Of a stretch of 62,707 nucleotides of DNA, positions 31,353 to 41,174 are shown in pieces. Every line of letters begins with the position of its first letter. Within the stretch, counting starts at the first letter, position 1. Position numbers and translations under genes: made by a program. The notes beneath the pieces are model-generated. The model searched no databases. It saw nothing but the letters and a program-made list of their open reading frames with translations, and was not told where the DNA came from. The DNA is from Paralimibaculum aggregatum (GTDB lineage Bacteria; Pseudomonadota; Alphaproteobacteria; Rhodobacterales; Rhodobacteraceae): positions 1-62,707 of the forward strand of contig NZ_BSYI01000028.1 of assembly GCF_030270585.1 (NCBI RefSeq). Direction: 5' to 3'.

Positions 31353-32524
31353 GCCACCTGCAGCGCCGCGCCCCCCGCCCGCAGAACGCGCGCTCCCGCG
31401 CGAGCCCGCGGCAGCCCGTACTCCCGACCCCGGGGCGCGGCCCGTCTCCCCGCCCCAAGGCGCCGCCCGCCTTCCCGGCCCAAGACGCGCCGTGACCGCC
31501 GGGCCATCCCGGTCTGCCGCGCCGTGGCCATGCCGGTTCGGGTTCGGTCAACGGAGCGCCCCACTTCGGCGACTCGTGGTGCGGGCTGATGGCGCGCGTA
31601 CCGTGCCGCCCTGACTGGCCCGCCGGGCCTGTCGAGCCATCCCGGTTTGCCCCGCCGCGCCATGCCGGTTCCGGTCCGGTTCAGCGGAGCGCCCCGCTTC
31701 GGCGACTTGAGGCGTGGGCTGGCGATGCGCGCACCGTGCCGCCCTGATCGAGCGTGCCCGCCGGGCCTTCCCGATCTCCTGCGCCGCGCCATGCCGGTTC
31801 CGGTCCGGTCGACGGTGCGCCCCGCTTCGGCGACTGGAGGTGCGGGCTGGTGGCGCGCGTACCGTGCTGCCCTGACTGGTCTGCCGGGCCTGGCGGGCCT
31901 TCCCGTTCTCCTGCGCCGTGGCCAAGCCGGTTCCGGCCCGGTTCAGCGGAGCGCCCCGTTTCGGCGACTCGAAGCGCGGGCTGGCGATGCGCGTACCGGG
32001 CCGCCCTGATCGAGCCGTGCCCGCCGGGCCATACCGATCTACCGGGCCGCCCCGCGTCGGTTCCGGCCCGGTTCATCGAAGCGTTCCGCTTCGGCGACTT
32101 GTGGCGTGGGCTGGCAGTGCGCGCACCACGCCGCCCCAACTGGCCCACCGGGCCTGCCGAGCTATTCCGATTGGCACCATCGGCGGCCATGCCGGTTCCG
32201 GTCCGGTCAACGGCGCGTCCCGCTTCGGCGACACGCGGTGCGGGCTGGTGGCGCGTGCGCCGTGCCGCCCTGGCGGACGCGGCGGGGGCGCCGGGGCTGC
32301 CGGGCGTCCTCGCCCCCCTCCGCCGGGGCCTTGCCCGGGGCGGGCGCGGGGCCATGCGCCGCGGCTTTCCCTCGCCCTGCGGCTCTCGATGCCGCCCTGC
32401 CCCGCCGGTGCGGCACCGACAACCGTACAACCATGGCGGCATAGCCTCCCCAGAATCCGCCACCACCGGTTGATCCTCTTCCACCGGGGCAGCCGATCCA
32501 GCAGACTGGGGCCGGGGACGAAGC
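31353..32524. repeat. About 131-bp imperfect tandem repeats, six copies
   Basis: A non-coding gap of about 1.17 kb. From about 31531 to 32330 six diverged units of 129-135 bp follow each other. The shared word tgccggtt or its variant falls at 31531, 31663, 31792, 31925, 32055 and 32190. Each unit then has CGCCCCGCTTCGGCGACT, a gcgggctgg block and a CCGTGCCGCCCTGA block. Open frames across it on both strands are repeat shadows: unit length is not a multiple of three and no frame is conserved. The remaining DNA on either side shows nothing recognisable. Confidence 0.85.
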
Positions 32525-33487
32525 ATGAGCGAGGACGACATGACCACGGAAACCGACACCCTCCCGCCCTTCGCGGCGATCGACGGGTTCATCGCCTATG
32601 GCGAGACGGGCCCGGCGGCGGCGGCGGGCGACTGCCGCCTGCTCGCATGCGCGCCCGGGGGCGACGCCGCCGAGGCCGCGCGGGTGCTGGGGCGGACGAT
32701 GGAGCTGGCGCGGCATCTGGCACCGCCGGGCTTCGGCGGCGGCGTCGCCGCGCTCTGGGAGGGCGGCGCCTGCCTGGTCCAGCCGGCCAGCGGCCGCGGC
32801 GTGCTCGGGGCGCGCGGCTTCAATCTCGGGCTCGCCATGCGCGGGCTGGCCGAGGGCGCGCCGGCGGGCACGGCCGATGATGCGGCCGGGGATGCGCCCC
32901 AGGCGGAGACGCCGGACGCGGAGGCGCCGGTTGCCCTGCCGCCCGGCCCGGAGGCAGCGCTCTGGGAGCTGGCCGACCTGATCGAGCGGACCGAGCTGCC
33001 GCGCCGGTTGCGGATCATGCTCGGCGACGACGCGCTGACCCTTGCCATTGCCCGCGGCGCGGCATGGGGCGACAGCGCGGAGGCGCAGCTTTCCGGGCTC
33101 GCGGCGCGGCTTCGCGCGGCCCTCGGCTCGGGCGCGGGCCTGCGCTATCGGCTCGAGCCCGACCCCGGTGCGGCGCATGCCGGGCCGCCGGTCGATGCCG
33201 CCGCGCTGTTTCGCGGAGCGCATGATGCGGGCCGGAGTTCCGAAGAATCATGGGCGTTCAATGCCGCGGGATGGCCGGATAGCGTCCCTACAGATGCACA
33301 GTTTTCGCGCATCCGTAAAGAAACGTTACAGGCGAACAGGGTCAGGGCCTGGGCGAAGTTCGTTTCCGTGCAAACGTCTTTTCGATTCGGGTTGCTGACG
33401 CCCGGCGCCGCGATTTGTCTTGTTGTGGTCGGCGATGGCGACGGTACGGTCCGGATACGGAACCCCGCCGCGCCGAAGATTGGTTAA
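32525..33487 (+). CDS. Hypothetical protein upstream of the GTPase operon
   Basis: A 320-codon frame starting MSEDDMTTETDTLPPFAAI (ATG at 32525, alternative at 32540). I do not recognise it. Residues about 15-105 have a mixed alpha/beta look, and the segment ACLVQPASGRGVLGARGFNLGLAM lines up loosely with HLIRPLSAN...AANLGMA of the roadblock-like protein encoded downstream, so a remote roadblock-type domain is possible. A Pro/Ala linker follows, then a second domain. From about 33230 the DNA becomes much less GC-rich and codon bias weakens, so the last 80 or so codons may not be genuine or may be of different origin. Confidence 0.5.
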   Translation: MSEDDMTTETDTLPPFAAIDGFIAYGETGPAAAAGDCRLLACAPGGDAAEAARVLGRTMELARHLAPPGFGGGVAALWEGGACLVQPASGRGVLGARGFNLGLAMRGLAEGAPAGTADDAAGDAPQAETPDAEAPVALPPGPEAALWELADLIERTELPRRLRIMLGDDALTLAIARGAAWGDSAEAQLSGLAARLRAALGSGAGLRYRLEPDPGAAHAGPPVDAAALFRGAHDAGRSSEESWAFNAAGWPDSVPTDAQFSRIRKETLQANRVRAWAKFVSVQTSFRFGLLTPGAAICLVVVGDGDGTVRIRNPAAPKIG

Positions 33488-33667: not shown

Positions 33668-35782
33668 ATGTCCGGAACGGGCGACAGAATTGCATGTGCA
33701 GGATTGGGCCGGGAGCGGCACCTCGCCGCTCTCGGGGAGCGCCTCGAGGCGCTGGGCGAGCATCTCGGCAAGCTCGAACGGCTGGTCGACGGCGAGCACC
33801 GCGAGAAGGTGCTGCAGACCGGCGCCGCGCTGCGCCGGTTCTCGCCGGTGGTCAATGTCGTCGGCCAGATCAAGGCCGGCAAGACCGCGCTGATCAACAG
33901 CCTCGCCGAGTCCGGCGGCGTGCTGCCCACGGATGTGAACCCCTGGACGGCGGTGGTCACCTCGCTGCATCTCAACAGTGCCGAGACCGCCGGCGAGGCC
34001 GCGGTGTTCCGCTTCTTCACCGCCGAGGAATGGGACCAGCTGACCTGCGAGGGCGGGCGTGCCGGGCTGCTCGCACGCTCCGCCGAGCTCGAGACCGAGC
34101 TGGCCACGCTGAAGCGGCAGATGGCGGAGGTCCATGCCAAGGCGAAGGCCCGGCTCGGGCGCAATTTCGACATGCTGCTCGGCGCCGAGCACCGCTTCAA
34201 CAGCTATGACCGCGCGCTGATCGAGCGCTATGTCTGCCTCGGCATGGACGACGGCGAGGCCGGCACCCGGCGCGGCCGCTTCGCCGATCTCACCCGCTCG
34301 GCCGATCTCTACATGCAGGCGCCGCGCTTCGGCGCGCCGATCACCCTGCGCGACACGCCCGGCGTCAACGACCCCTTCCTGGTGCGCGAGCAGGTCACGC
34401 TGCGCAGCCTCGGCGACACCCAGGTCTGCGTCGTGGTGCTGAGCGCGCACCAGGCGCTGAGCACCACCGATCTCGCCCTCGTGCGCCTGCTGACGACGAT
34501 GAACGACAACCAGATCCTCGTCTTCGTCAACCGCATCGACGAGCTCGACGACCCGGCGGCGCAGGTGGCGGAGATCCGCGAGCGGATCCGCGACACCTTC
34601 GCGATGCGCCGGATGGCGGCGGAGGTGCCGGTCCTGTTCGGCAGCGCGCTCTGGGCCAATGCGGCGCTCGGCGGGAGCCTCGATGCCCTGCCGCCGGCCA
34701 GCCGCCGGACCCTCGCCGCGGCGATCGCGCGGGATGGCGCGGCGGACCCGGCGGCGGGCCCGGCAGCGGGGCACACGGCGGGGCAGGACGAGATCGCCGC
34801 CGCCTGGGCCGCCTCCGGCGTGCCGGCGCTGCAGGCCCGCATCGCGGCGCTGATCGAGGCCGGCGACGGGCGCCGCCAGGTGCGCACCCTGGCCGGCCAG
34901 GCGCTCAACATCGCGCGGCAGGCCGAGGCCCGGCTGCGGGCGGCGCCGCGCGACCCGGCGCGCGAGCCGAACGCGCTCGACACCGAGGCGCTGTTCGCGC
35001 GGATCAACCCGATGACCGCCCGGCTCAACGGCCGCATGGAGACCATCACCGACACCGCCTGGATCGCCCTGCAGCGCGAGCTCCACCGGCTGATCAACGC
35101 CTATGCCGAGCGCGAGTCGGCGGCCTTCGCGGCGGCGCTCGACCGGCAGGGCCAGGTGCCGGAATGGACGCCCGACCCGGTGGCCTTCCGGCAGTCGCTC
35201 GGCACCGCCTACTACGCCTTCCTCGCCGAGGTGCAGGAGCAGACCCAGGCGCTCTACGACGAGGCCGCCCGCGAGATCCGCACGCTCTACGGCCTGGTCC
35301 TCGCGGAGGGCGCGATGCCGGCGCGGATCGAGCCGCCGCAGGTGCCCTTCACCGCCGCCCCGACGACGCTCGGCGCGGCGCTGACGGTGGACATGAGCTC
35401 CGGCTGGTGGACCGGCTGGTTCGCGCGCTTCCGCTCGAGCCGCACCAAGGCGGCGCAGCTCGCCCGGCAGATCCGCACCGAGGCCCGCGGCGTGGTGCAG
35501 GGCCTCGAGGAGGGGCATATCGGGCCGGTCTTCCGCGACTACCGCGCGGTGCTCGCCGACTTTCTCGAGGAGCACTGCGCGACGCTCTACGACCTGGTGC
35601 CGGATGACGGGCGCGGCGAGCAGACCGGCACCGGCCGCTGGCTCGGCCGGCGCGCCGCCGACAAGGCGCGGCTGCTGGTCATCGCCGAGCTGACCGCCGG
35701 GCTCGAGGCGCTGTTCGACGCGCCCGGCCGCCCCGCCCCGGCCGCGGCCGAGCCGCTGAAGGCGCTGGAGGCGACCCGATGA
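33668..35782 (+). CDS. Dynamin-family GTPase, long form
   Basis: A 704-residue protein with a dynamin-like GTPase domain: G1 GQIKAGKT (about 66-73), G2 threonine in NPWTAVVT (about 94), G3 DTPGVNDP (about 229-236) and G4 NRID (about 288-291). A coiled-coil-like insertion (about 135-165) splits the domain. The rest is a helical stalk-like region with a short segment MSSGWWTGWFARFRSS (from about residue 577) that could be a membrane-contact paddle. GGAGAG precedes the start. It overlaps the second GTPase gene by four bases. Bacterial dynamin-like proteins act in membrane remodelling or fusion; the function here is unknown. Confidence 0.87.
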   Translation: MSGTGDRIACAGLGRERHLAALGERLEALGEHLGKLERLVDGEHREKVLQTGAALRRFSPVVNVVGQIKAGKTALINSLAESGGVLPTDVNPWTAVVTSLHLNSAETAGEAAVFRFFTAEEWDQLTCEGGRAGLLARSAELETELATLKRQMAEVHAKAKARLGRNFDMLLGAEHRFNSYDRALIERYVCLGMDDGEAGTRRGRFADLTRSADLYMQAPRFGAPITLRDTPGVNDPFLVREQVTLRSLGDTQVCVVVLSAHQALSTTDLALVRLLTTMNDNQILVFVNRIDELDDPAAQVAEIRERIRDTFAMRRMAAEVPVLFGSALWANAALGGSLDALPPASRRTLAAAIARDGAADPAAGPAAGHTAGQDEIAAAWAASGVPALQARIAALIEAGDGRRQVRTLAGQALNIARQAEARLRAAPRDPAREPNALDTEALFARINPMTARLNGRMETITDTAWIALQRELHRLINAYAERESAAFAAALDRQGQVPEWTPDPVAFRQSLGTAYYAFLAEVQEQTQALYDEAAREIRTLYGLVLAEGAMPARIEPPQVPFTAAPTTLGAALTVDMSSGWWTGWFARFRSSRTKAAQLARQIRTEARGVVQGLEEGHIGPVFRDYRAVLADFLEEHCATLYDLVPDDGRGEQTGTGRWLGRRAADKARLLVIAELTAGLEALFDAPGRPAPAAAEPLKALEATR

Positions 35783-37425
35783 ACATGCTGCGGAGCGTCT
35801 GCCCCGGGGCGCCGCCGGCGGCCGCGGCCGACCGGGCCCGGCGCATCGCGCGCTGGCTCGAGAGCCCGCCCCGCTGCGCACTGATGGGCGAGTTCAGCGC
35901 CGGCAAGTCGACCCTGCTGAACCTGCTGCTCGGGCGCGACGCGGTGCCGACGCGGGTGACCGCGACACAGCTCCCGGCGCTGCGCTTCGGCCATGGCGAG
36001 ACGGTCCGCGTGCTGCGCCGCGACCACGACGGCAGCCGCCGCATCATCGCGCCCTCGGAGATCCCGGCCTGCGGGCACCGGAGCTGCGCGATGCTGGAGA
36101 TCACCGCCCCCGACGCGGTGCTGCGCGACTGCACGATCTTCGACACGCCGGGGATCTCGGACCCGATGCTGGCGCATGACGTGCTGCCGCGGGTCGCCGG
36201 CGCCAGCCGCTTCGTGCTGTGGTGCACCAATGCCGCGCAGGCCTGGCGCCAGACCGAGAAGGAGCGGTGGCTGTCGCTGCCGCCGCGACTCAGGGCCGAG
36301 AGCGTGCTGGTGGTGACCCGCGCCGACATGCTGAGCCCGGCCGATGCCCGCAAGGTCCGGGCCCGGCTGGAGCGCGAGACCGCGGGGCTGTTTCGCGATG
36401 TCGTCTTCATCGCAACGCCGCGCGCCACGGAGGCCCTGAACATGGCAGATGAGGAGAAGCGCCAGTCGGCCTGGGCCGCGAGCGGCGGCGAGGACCTGTT
36501 CGCGGCGTTCCGGACCTCGATCGACCGCGCCAGGGCCTGGCGGCGCGAGCTTCTGAAGCGGCGCGGCCCCGCCGGCCGCGACCTCGGCCCCGCCGGGGAC
36601 GACCTCGGCCCCGCCGGGGGCAATGCGGCGCCGGGCATCGCGACACCGGGCGATCCGGCACCGGACGATCTGGCGCCGGGCGATCTGGCGCCGGGCAATC
36701 CGGCACCGGGCGATCTGGCACCGGGCGATCTGGCACCGGGCGATCTGGCGCCGGGCGATCTGGCGCCGGGCGATCTGGCGGCGGGCAATCCGGCACCGGG
36801 CAATCCGGCACCGGGCGGTCTGGCGCCGGGCAATCCGGCACCGGGCGATCCGGCACCGGGCAATCCGGCACCGGGCGATCCGGCACCGGGCGATCTGGCG
36901 CCGGGCGATCCGGCACCGGGCGATCCGGCGCCGGGCGATCTGGCGCCGGGCGATCTGGCGCCGGGCGATCTGGAGCCGAACGACCGCGCACCCGGCGATG
37001 CGCGCAACGGGTCCGCCTCCGCACCGCCGGAGCCGCCCGCGCCCGCGCCCCCGGCCAGGCCCGAGACCCCGCCGCTCGCGGCCTGGGACGCGATCTGTGC
37101 CGAGACCGCCGGGCCGCCGGAGATCGACCGCATCCGCGCCGCCGCCGCGCGCTTCGCCGACAGCCTGGCGCGCCGCACCGATGCCGAGGCGCCGCCGATC
37201 CGGCTGCTGCGCCGGCTCGTCGACCTGCGCGGCGAGGGCGATCTCGACGGGCTCGATCCGCAGCGGCTCGCCCGGCAGCTGCGCCGCGAGATCGCGACGT
37301 TTTCCACGAGTGACTGGCGCGAGCCCGGAGCGGCCCGCGCCGACACGGAGACACCTACCAGGAGGGGTGCCGAGGGAGTGGCTCCTGGCATGGACGACGG
37401 CAGACAAGGAGTGAGAGATGCCTAA
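35779..37425 (+). CDS. Second dynamin-like GTPase with pentapeptide-repeat linker
   Basis: A 548-residue protein. The GTPase domain has G1 GEFSAGKS (about 37-44), a G2 threonine in TRVTATQLP, G3 DTPGISDP (about 122-129) and G4 TRAD (about 180-183). Residues about 287-405 are roughly 24 pentapeptide units of the form APGDL, APGDP or APGNP, a flexible Pro/Gly/Asp-rich linker. A small helical C-terminal domain follows (WDAICAETAGPPEIDRI to LARQLRREIATF). It is shorter than, and clearly different from, the first GTPase, so the two may form a heteromer as paired bacterial dynamins do. Its start overlaps the upstream gene by four bases and its end overlaps the roadblock gene by eight. Confidence 0.86.
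   Translation: MNMLRSVCPGAPPAAAADRARRIARWLESPPRCALMGEFSAGKSTLLNLLLGRDAVPTRVTATQLPALRFGHGETVRVLRRDHDGSRRIIAPSEIPACGHRSCAMLEITAPDAVLRDCTIFDTPGISDPMLAHDVLPRVAGASRFVLWCTNAAQAWRQTEKERWLSLPPRLRAESVLVVTRADMLSPADARKVRARLERETAGLFRDVVFIATPRATEALNMADEEKRQSAWAASGGEDLFAAFRTSIDRARAWRRELLKRRGPAGRDLGPAGDDLGPAGGNAAPGIATPGDPAPDDLAPGDLAPGNPAPGDLAPGDLAPGDLAPGDLAPGDLAAGNPAPGNPAPGGLAPGNPAPGDPAPGNPAPGDPAPGDLAPGDPAPGDPAPGDLAPGDLAPGDLEPNDRAPGDARNGSASAPPEPPAPAPPARPETPPLAAWDAICAETAGPPEIDRIRAAAARFADSLARRTDAEAPPIRLLRRLVDLRGEGDLDGLDPQRLARQLRREIATFSTSDWREPGAARADTETPTRRGAEGVAPGMDDGRQGVRDA
36645..37000 (+). repeat. 15-bp in-frame repeats, about 24 units
   Basis: Units such as gcgccgggcgatctg and gcaccgggcgatccg are repeated head to tail inside the second GTPase gene. 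The unit length of 15 bp keeps the frame, and variation is mostly CTG/CCG and GAT/AAT, so the array is free to change copy number without disrupting the protein. Confidence 0.93.
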
Positions 37426-37792
37426 CGAAATGACGATGTCGACCAATATTTCCGGTCTGAACGAGATCGCCGGCTTCATCGGCGCCTGCCTCGTGGACAG
37501 CGAGACCGGCCTGATGCTCGGCTCGGAGGGCGGCGGCTCGCGCTTCGACCTCGAGGCCGCCGGCGCCGGCAACACCGAGGTGGTCAAGGCCAAGCTGGCG
37601 ACCATGCAGGCGCTCGGCCTGAACGACACGATCGAGGACATCCTGATCACGCTCGGCAAGCAGTACCACCTGATCCGGCCGCTCTCGGCCAACCCGTCGA
37701 TCTTCATCTATGTCGCGCTGGACAAGAAGGCCGCCAATCTCGGCATGGCGCGGATCCAGGTGAAGAAGGTCGAGCAGACCCTGCGCCTCTGA
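37418..37792 (+). CDS. Roadblock/LC7-like protein
   Basis: A 124-residue protein starting MPNEMTMSTNISGLNEIAGF. Its order of elements (helix, GACLVDSETGLMLGSEGG hairpin, long helix VVKAKLATMQALG, strands ILITLGKQYHLIRPL and IFIYVALDK, final helix) fits the roadblock/LC7 fold, whose bacterial members such as MglB regulate small GTPases. It is the last gene of the three-gene operon, overlapping the second GTPase gene by eight bases, and could act as a GTPase regulator or scaffold. The assignment is by pattern, not by a strict signature. Confidence 0.7.
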   Translation: MPNEMTMSTNISGLNEIAGFIGACLVDSETGLMLGSEGGGSRFDLEAAGAGNTEVVKAKLATMQALGLNDTIEDILITLGKQYHLIRPLSANPSIFIYVALDKKAANLGMARIQVKKVEQTLRL

Positions 37793-38394: not shown

Positions 38395-39666
38395 GCGCCG
38401 GGCAAGCCGATGGCCACACCGCCCGCCGCCAGCCGATCCCCATGGCCCCGCGCTAGGCTCCGCACGATCGGCTGATACCGGCGGCCCACCCGGCCCCGGA
38501 GGCCGCGCTTCCGCAACGCCGGGCAAGTTGTTGGCCGCGCCGCCCGCCTCCAGCCGATCTTCGTGGCTCCGCGCGAGGACCTGCAAAGACGGTGGATACC
38601 GGCGACCCACCCGGCATCGGAGGCCGCAAAGGCGTCCCAGACCGCTGAGCTTCCGAAACGCTGGGCAAGTCGGTCGCCGTGCGCCTGTCGCCAGCCGATC
38701 ACCGTGCCTCTGCGCGGGGCCCCGTGCGGTCGGCGGTTACGGGCGACCCACCGGGCGTAAGAGGCCATGAGCCCGTCCCCGACCGCCGTGCTCTTGCAAC
38801 GCCGGCCAAGCCGGTGGCCGCGCTGCCCGCCGCCCGCCGATCTTCGTGGCCGCACGCGGGGCCCCGCGGGATCCGCGGATACTGGCGACCCACCCGGCAC
38901 CGGAGGCCGCGAGCCCGTCCCCGACCGCCATACTTCCGCAATGCCGGCCAAGCGGTGGCCGAACCGGCCGCCGCCAGCCGATCTCCGTGGCCCGGCGCGA
39001 GGCCCCGTGCGGTCGGCGGATACCGGCCGCCCAACGGGCAGCGGAGGCCGCGAGCCCGTCCGCGACCAGCCTCGCCGCCGGGCGCGCAGCCGCCCCCGCG
39101 CGGTCGCGCCGCATCCGCCTCACGGTCCCGCCGGACAGGCAGGGGGTATTCGCGGCAGCGGCGCGCAGGGGCCCGGAACCGGTCAATGCGCAGGTTGCCG
39201 GTCTGCGCCATGGGCGACGGGCGGGCCGGGTGGGCGCCGCGGGAAAGCCCTTCAGCCCATCGGCGACCGCGACGGGGAGGCCCTGAGCCCGGATCCGGAG
39301 CGCGTGCATTGCCGGCTGTTGGACCATCGGCCGCCGCGCCCGGCAGCCCGTCGGCGGGCGGTGGCGGGAGAGGCGGCGCCGCTCCTGCCCGGCGCGCGGC
39401 ACGGTGTCCTCGGGTCGGGGCACGGGCACGGGCACGGGATGCGGGATGCGGGAAACCCGTCGCCAGCGGGCCCGCAACGCCGCAGCTTCGGAGCCGATGC
39501 CTCAATTCCGGGCCGATCCGGGCGCATCCGCCGCTGGCGGGCCGCAGGCCGGGATGGCGGGCAAGGCCCGGATGCGCCGGAGCAGCGCCGCCGCCTCCCG
39601 CGCCGCGGGCGCCGCCTGCCCTGGCCGAGACGCCGGCCGGCGCACCCGGCGGACCCGCGCTCCGGG
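38395..39666. repeat. About 142-bp imperfect tandem repeats, five copies
   Basis: From about 38395 to 39075 five diverged units follow one another, marked by ggcaag or gccaag at 38401, 38522, 38664, 38805 and 38947 (spacing 121, 142, 141, 142). Each contains CGCCAGCCGATC-like, GCGCGAGGCC-like and GGATACCGGCGACCCACC-like words. It is unrelated in sequence to the 131-bp array upstream. From 39076 to the PAS gene at 39667 I see no further gene or repeat. Confidence 0.85.
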
Positions 39667-40089: not shown

Positions 40090-41174
40090 CGCGCCGCCCC
40101 CGGCCCGGAGCGGCACCGGCCCGCGCCGCGAGGGAGCCGCACCGGCGCGGCCCCCGCGGGAGCGGTGACTGGCCGGGACGCAGCCACCGGGCACGCCGGT
40201 CGGCGCGCATCCGAAGGGCCCAAGGGGCGGCGCTCGATCCGCCGGCACGCGATCTGGCGGCACATGTTCAGGCAACGCACGGTCAGGTGGCGTGCGATTG
40301 GGTGGCGTGCGGTCCGACGGCACAAGGTCGGGCGACGCGCGGTCAGATGGCGTGCGATCCGATGGCACGAGGTCGGGCAACGCGCGGTCGGGTGGGGTTC
40401 AACCGGGCGACGCGCGCTCCGACGGCATGTGTTCAGGCAATGCGCGGTCAGGTGGCGTGCGATGGGGTGTGCGATCTGACAACCCGAGGTCGGGCGGCGC
40501 GCAGTCAGATGGAGCGCAATCAGACAGCGCACGGTCAGGCAGCCAACGGACGGGCGACCAATGGGCGAGCGGCGCTTGATCAGGTGGCGAGCGATTGGGC
40601 GCTGCGCAACCAGGTTACGTGCGGTCTGTCGGACAATGGTCTGCCGGCGCGAGGTCAGGTGGCGCGCGGTCAGGCGGTGTACGGACAGGCGGTGTATGGT
40701 CAGGGGACGCGCGATTGAGCGGCACCTGGACGGGCGGCGCGCGATTGGGTGGCGCGCGATCCGGGGGCGCGCGACCATGTGGAGCGCGGTCAGGGGGTGC
40801 GCGCCGCGCGGGTGCGGGGTCGCGGCGTGTCTGGACGGGCGGCGCGTGGTTGGGTGGCGCGTGATCCGGAGGGGCGCGGCCATGTGGAGCGTGGTCAGGG
40901 GGGGTGCGCCGCGCGGGTGCGGGGTCGGGTGGCGTCCGGCCGGGCGGCGCCCACACTGGCGGGGTGCACACTGGCGGGGTGCGCACTGGCGGGGCACCAT
41001 CCGGCGGTGCACCATCCGGCGGGGCGTGGTCCGGCGGTCCGGGGCGGCGCTGCGGCTTCGGGCGGGGTGGCGGCGCGCCGGGCCGGTGGCGGCGGGCCGG
41101 TTCCGCGCCGGCGTCCGGTCCCCGGCGGGGCCGGGGGTGGCGGCGGCCCGGCGGCGCCGTGCTCGCGGGGTCAT
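40086..41174 (-). CDS. Arg/His/Thr-rich repeat ORF, possibly translated
   Basis: A 362-codon frame with no recognisable family, made largely of decayed five-residue repeats (ARHLT, RRPTS, RHPIA) encoded by 15-bp DNA units. In favour of translation, its ATG overlaps the stop of the upstream 108-aa gene by four bases and its TGA overlaps the PAS start by four bases. It is uninterrupted, and it has higher GC at third positions than the Pro-rich frame, which contains stops. Against: the composition is extreme, and 15-bp repeats keep all frames open easily. It would be a highly basic, probably disordered protein. Confidence 0.4.
   Translation of the reverse strand: MTPRARRRRAAATPGPAGDRTPARNRPAATGPARRHPARSRSAAPDRRTTPRRMVHRRMVPRQCAPRQCAPRQCGRRPAGRHPTPHPRGAPPLTTLHMAAPLRITRHPTTRRPSRHAATPHPRGAHPLTALHMVARPRIARHPIARRPSRCRSIARPLTIHRLSVHRLTARHLTSRRQTIVRQTARNLVAQRPIARHLIKRRSPIGRPSVGCLTVRCLIALHLTARRPTSGCQIAHPIARHLTAHCLNTCRRSARRPVEPHPTARCPTSCHRIARHLTARRPTLCRRTARHPIARHLTVRCLNMCRQIACRRIERRPLGPSDARRPACPVAASRPVTAPAGAAPVRLPRGAGRCRSGPGAAR
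40230..41100. repeat. 15-bp degenerate tandem repeats
   Basis: Units close to ggtcaggtggcgcgc recur for about 870 bp with frequent single-base changes, on the plus strand as written. The array fills the space between the PAS gene and the 108-aa gene. In one minus-strand frame it reads PPDRA/PPDHA-type pentapeptides with stops, and in another the uninterrupted Arg-rich ORF. Confidence 0.85.

Follow-up and report, generated by a model that had tools for sequence, protein, structure and literature searches.

A roadblock-type gene set with a dynamin pair in Paralimibaculum aggregatum and its relatives

Layout of the locus

The window analysed here, a stretch of 62,707 nucleotides from Paralimibaculum aggregatum, carries three overlapping genes that we refer to as D1, D2 and RB, with a further gene, U1, directly 5' of D1:

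32525-33487, forward strand: U1, 320 amino acids (aa), of no known family
33668-35782, forward strand: D1, open reading frame of 704 aa, dynamin-like, with a GTPase domain, a long helical stalk and an aromatic tip
35779-37425, forward strand: D2, open reading frame of 548 aa, with a dynamin-type GTPase at about residues 20-250, a repeat-rich tail and a short C-terminus
36644-36973, forward strand: 22 copies of a 15-base repeat inside D2, encoding a linker of Ala-Pro-Gly-Asp-type pentapeptides
37418-37792, forward strand: RB, open reading frame of 124 aa with a roadblock fold in its predicted structure; alternative starts at 37430 and 37436

A sequence-only reading of this DNA had described overlaps of 4 and 8 bases between these genes, and the open reading frames confirm both: D1 and D2 share the four bases ATGA, and D2 and RB overlap by 8 bases when RB is started at the ATG at 37418, which has an AAGGAG 6 bases 5' of it. 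Two more in-frame ATGs lie at 37430 and 37436, and many RB relatives (with starts picked by script) begin at residues matching 37436, so that the 8-base figure depends on the choice of start. A scan for promoters and terminators gave no signal above chance. Pfam searches with 10 neighbouring open reading frames returned a TRAP transporter, PEP mutase, PAS, LysR, DUF4214 and nitronate monooxygenase, with two frames left unmatched. The window also contains three stretches filled with tandem repeats (31489-32272, 38396-39067 and 40271-41025; periods of 15, 30, 45, 105, 121, 133, 141, 264 and 283 bases), of ambiguous coding status; the D2 linker, too, is built on a 15-base period.

D1 is a full dynamin and D2 a short one

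Dynamin-type GTPases are membrane-reshaping proteins, and both D1 and D2 match Pfam Dynamin_N above the cut-off (E = 1.3e-10 and 2.1e-10, respectively). The motifs G1 to G4 had been reported for both proteins; we read G1, G3 and G4 in D1 (GQIKAGKT, residues 66-73; DTPG, 229-232; NRID, 288-291) and in D2 (GEFSAGKS, 37-44; DTPG, 117-120; TRAD, 180-183), and by our own assignment a conserved threonine region in each protein fits G2.

The AlphaFold model of D1, built on 30 sequences (pLDDT 80.1, pTM 0.81), consists of a GTPase head and five long helices (residues 385-425, 439-494, 504-545, 591-643 and 655-684); the likely tip carries an aromatic stretch lying between residues 546 and 590. In a Foldseek search, the best match to D1 is BDLP (2j69; E = 3.1e-16, TM 0.46), followed by SynDLP, IniA and the C. 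jejuni pair, and a D1 profile searched against the PDB finds BDLP at 6.1e-14 and chain A of 5owv at 4.4e-12. The fold match to BDLP, SynDLP and mycobacterial IniA extends over most of the length of D1; to our knowledge, none of these three has a roadblock partner.

The best PDB match of the D2 profile is chain C of 5owv, the C. jejuni dynamin pair (E = 4e-24); going by chain lengths, chains A and C would be DLP1 and DLP2. In shorter D2 relatives of about 360 aa the GTPase domain ends near residue 250 and is followed by only about 110 residues, largely of low complexity with a short conserved end. Judged by this length and composition, D2 is a dynamin-type GTPase without room for a helical stalk; D1 is the full and D2 the short dynamin of the set. 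The C. jejuni genes Cj-DLP1 and Cj-DLP2 are likewise two unlike dynamin-type GTPase genes side by side, and heterotypic assembly of their products triggers GTPase activity and lipid binding; the accessible part of that paper names an HcpA-like beta-lactamase in the operon and no roadblock gene (PMC6104087). The locus described here differs from that pair in the missing room for a stalk in D2 and in the presence of RB.

RB has a predicted roadblock fold nearest to that of MglB

The 124-aa protein had been claimed to be of roadblock type, and structure prediction gave the fold on which that claim depended: by its model, RB is a roadblock protein, nearest to MglB. The AlphaFold model, based on an alignment of 70 relatives (pLDDT 93.1, pTM 0.85), has the element order a-b-b-a-b-b-b-a, which is that of roadblock/LC7 proteins, and its top Foldseek match in the PDB is Myxococcus MglB (6hjm, E = 5.7e-8, TM 0.78). 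The top 18 PDB rows are all chains of M. xanthus MglB or MglA-MglB entries, after which come Ragulator and Thermus MglB; MglC is ranked among the matches as well. Searches with the RB sequence found no match in Pfam or PADLOC and none over the cut-off in NCBIfam, and against the PDB the single protein gave nothing useful and the profile no match. The Pfam model Robl_LC7 (PF03259) matches 9 of 70 RB family members at E values up to 1 (best 1e-8) and no sequence in the window's own genome, where a single RB was found. A plasmid search gave 28 records, all below 60% identity.

Roadblock proteins are best known as regulators of small Ras-like switches, from MglA-MglB to Ragulator. As in our locus, a roadblock gene stands beside a GTPase gene in MglA-MglB and in the actinobacterial conservons (PMC4316618), and the RB fold is nearest to MglB; in those systems, however, the GTPase is small and Ras-like, whereas here it is a dynamin and RB lies outside the Robl_LC7 model. 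The same 2014 survey of prokaryotic small GTPases, which nowhere uses the word dynamin, reports 328 MglB homologues without coupling to MglA (PMC4316618). The sequence-only reading had considered the combination of a roadblock gene with a dynamin pair to be new, and we found no roadblock-dynamin operon among the open-licence papers that our searches listed; the parts are of known kinds, and it is their combination that we did not find there.

RB occurs with the dynamin pair inside the family and with Ras-like GTPases outside it

We searched 295 genomes, sampled evenly from the window's family, for D1, D2 and RB. The 77 genomes with D1 are also those with D2; RB occurs in 20, 19 of which also carry D1 and D2 (Fisher p = 2e-11, kinship ignored); the remaining RB genome (G239) has neither. 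A further 58 of the 77 genomes with the pair have no RB match. RB places within 5 kb of a D1/D2 pair make up 16 of 27, in 14 of the 20 genomes; the other 11, including one at a contig end, lie away from the pair. RB was found in none of the four other genomes of the window's genus that were searched, and in a class-level sample of 337 genomes D1 was present in two, both belonging to the window's family.

Pattern matches in genome contigs also included 447 stretches related to RB, from which the best 80 were taken; 41 of these 80 (L006-L045 and L053) were taken as Rhodobacteraceae-type by taxonomic label, L031 being labelled to phylum only. Among these best 80, D1 or D2 lies within 5 kb of RB in 27 of the 41 Rhodobacteraceae-type loci, and the three seeds used found no Ras-like GTPase near any of the 41, whereas in 33 of the 39 loci outside the family a Ras/MglA-like GTPase lies no more than 5 kb from RB, and D1/D2 stand beside it in none. 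Conservation of the trio, on which the sequence-only reading had staked its proposal, is thus borne out in both samples, and there is an apparent switch of RB partners between Ras/MglA-like GTPases outside the family and the dynamin pair inside it. No Ras-like GTPase is found among the open reading frames around the window's RB, and searches of the window's genome with MglA-type GTPase profiles gave either nothing, in a search run without a positive control, or weak matches (E = 0.012 and 0.016); an Arf-family match lies in a 964-aa frame of that genome. The orphan RB loci (n = 19, counting L053 and L190 as one place) share no neighbour family common to at least four of them.

Some individual loci deserve mention. 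A record labelled Oceanobacillus (L034, contig WNWL01000004.1) carries an alphaproteobacterial D1/D2/RB set whose RB does not differ from the one in G008, a member of the window's family; the record is probably mislabelled or contaminated. In Acinetobacter (L072, L077, L083) and Lysobacter/Xanthomonas (L061, L071), an RB relative, a Ras-like GTPase and a second roadblock-type gene stand in a row, the second roadblock gene matching Pfam over the cut-off in Lysobacter and just under it in Acinetobacter.

The gene upstream of D1 recurs with the set. A U1 profile matches 16 (14 distinct) of the 41 loci (35 distinct) that hold RB and D1, in each case just 5' of D1 on the same strand, so that with 14 of 35 distinct loci U1 is a frequent rather than a constant member; the profile search found it in none of 53 kinase-only loci (described below), and it has no convincing Pfam family. 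The N-terminal domain of U1 looks roadblock-like by eye, and we considered U1 as a divergent roadblock protein; profile comparison did not support this, with a score of 14.0 against RB where 60 column shuffles reached 15.0.

RB shares open reading frames with D2

A single open frame spans D2 and RB in five lineages (L011 (=L130), L018, L105, L034 (=L188) and L186, with RB domain scores of 176, 181, 180, 115 and 93 bits, respectively), joined by long low-complexity linkers. No stop separates the two parts, so translation of D2 must continue into RB, unless a stop is masked by an error in the sequence. Four of the five frames have a methionine at or next to the RB start, so free RB may be made too; in L034 there is none within the 25 residues before the RB part. 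No D1-RB shared frame was seen. A kinase domain shares an open frame with RB in two loci (L038:6807-8351 and L193:7978-9423, the latter with no methionine at the RB start); the kinase is of the same subfamily as in the module described below, and these frames suggest a second RB partner.

A conserved domain of about 105 aa ends the D2 of L012, L017, L019, L020, L030, L107, L171 and L174 (=L021), in the second copy where there are two. Against the RB profile it scores 25.8, above all 60 shuffles (maximum 21.6), in a collinear alignment; the probability is 21% in local mode (against A1) and 54% in global mode (against A1 and the RB parts of L186 and L188), and the RB profile search detects these domains weakly (best E = 0.25). 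These comparisons are suggestive of a diverged, hidden roadblock domain, which the D2 end may be.

A kinase-FHA-PP2C module takes the place of RB in most loci

We collected 88 D1 loci from the 77 genomes, 89 with the window, and built profiles from the collected loci; a locus was called kinase-type if at least two of the kinase, FHA and PP2C genes lay within 9 kb, and RB-type if RB lay within 5 kb. By these definitions, 53 loci have the kinase module, 14 have RB (in L186 as a weak fused RB domain only), one has both (L106, with the two sets side by side) and 21 have neither; since a contig edge cuts off, or lies close to, at least 7 of these 21, the module counts are lower bounds. The two modules are nearly exclusive of one another (p = 3.4e-6, kinship ignored). 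For two loci, Pfam searches bore out the kinase, FHA and PP2C assignments; a third GTPase, D0, usually accompanies these genes. A recurrent six-gene set of Ser/Thr kinase, FHA protein, PP2C phosphatase and three dynamin-type GTPases is seen in L102, L104, L111 and many of L114-L173; we did not find it in the literature searched for it. The window's genome has two partial matches to the kinase (4.3e-19 and 1.3e-15), far from the window.

In the RB tree, a 58-row group holds 38 dynamin-side and 20 orphan rows and no Ras-side row (support 94, not starred, with few columns and long branches). The D1 tree (99 rows, quick method, SH-aLRT only, unrooted) places 49 of 52 kinase-type rows in one 54-row group, together with four neither-type rows and one mixed row, and the other three elsewhere. 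RB rows sit on several deep D1 branches, so RB is either an old or a repeatedly acquired partner, and the unrooted tree fits both.

RB also evolves far more slowly than its neighbours. We compared 22 D1-D2-RB loci, including two duplicates, over the 227 of their 231 pairs in which RB identity is under 97%. Median identity is 73% for RB, 42% for the D2 GTPase and 38% for D1, and RB exceeds D1 in every one of the 227. This makes RB the most strongly constrained of the three, as would suit either a many-contact oligomer or a further partner, which RB may have, being so much more conserved than D1 and D2.

Proposed role of RB and competing explanations

We lean towards reading D1-D2-RB as a roadblock-type dynamin gene set in which RB is a regulator acting through D2 on D1. 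The set, (U1-)D1-D2-RB, which we saw in a single alphaproteobacterial family, would combine a membrane-binding, membrane-deforming dynamin (D1), a short partner GTPase (D2) and a roadblock protein expected to form homodimers as other roadblock proteins do. By analogy with the C. jejuni pair, D1 and D2 would probably act as a complex on the membrane. RB would bind D2, covalently in some relatives, and through it could control the timing and location of D1-D2 assembly and GTP hydrolysis, much as MglB does for MglA: an RB dimer could join two D2 molecules and so promote or gate assembly, or it could stimulate hydrolysis in the manner of MglB. Regulation through D2 is favoured because RB shares frames with D2 and none with D1. 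In most sister loci, the Ser/Thr kinase, FHA protein, PP2C phosphatase and third GTPase would replace RB as the control module. That RB controls membrane remodelling is what we infer, including both the membrane process served and the direction of any RB effect on GTPase activity. The larger claim, on which we are slightly more doubtful than confident, is that a roadblock protein left its small Ras-like GTPases for a dynamin pair, where it now serves as the dedicated and partly covalent control of a dynamin that remodels membranes, and that it and the kinase-FHA-PP2C module are interchangeable.

The long low-complexity linkers of the shared D2-RB frames are what one would expect of a tether, and Foldseek ranks Ragulator subunits and MglC for RB besides MglB; RB might thus be a passive dimeric scaffold like the roadblock subunits of Ragulator or MglC, crosslinking D2 and raising D1-D2 assembly without an effect on GTP hydrolysis. 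We think this rather unlikely, given that the Acinetobacter and Lysobacter relatives sit with a small GTPase and a Pfam-recognised roadblock gene, a setting tied to GTPase regulation in MglA-MglB. It is less probable again that RB serves another partner in trans, in kinase signalling or on another GTPase, with its adjacency to D1-D2 reflecting a habit of co-regulation. The RB places away from dynamins (11 of 27), the kinase-RB frames of L038 and L193, the slow evolution of RB and a Ruegeria RB (L022) that lies beside a response regulator and a histidine kinase would all suit such a partner, but D2 and RB share one frame in five lineages, their adjacency is kept while D1 drifts to about 35-40% identity, and no neighbour family recurs in four or more of the 19 orphan loci.

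The patchy distribution of the pair (77 of 295 genomes) and matches to PADLOC profiles raise a different prospect, that these genes encode a dynamin system for phage defence akin to Leo/Eleos, to which RB would add a sensor of roadblock type. LeoA matches D1 (5.3e-8) and D2 (3.1e-8), and 30 D1 relatives gave 21 matches to LeoA (best 1.3e-18) and 22 to LeoBC (best 3.4e-12). The window itself scores low, at about 30 bits for LeoA and 15 bits for LeoBC, a level that could arise simply from having a GTPase domain of dynamin type in common; the roadblock gene is extra relative to Leo/Eleos systems, and the 10 neighbouring open reading frames have no defence-type Pfam name. We regard this explanation as very improbable.

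We know of no widely known dedicated regulator gene of bacterial dynamins. Regulation of D1 by RB through D2 would make this gene set a possible new way to control bacterial dynamins and, if true, RB the first roadblock regulator of a large GTPase; the set suggests that roadblock proteins can be re-used on large GTPases. With one dynamin pair and two candidate control modules, roadblock or kinase-FHA-PP2C, dynamin control becomes testable by gene swaps and simple biochemistry. In Hasllibacter (L010/L106), D1-D2-RB and then kinase-FHA-PP2C-D0-D1-D2 occupy a single stretch of about 14 kb.
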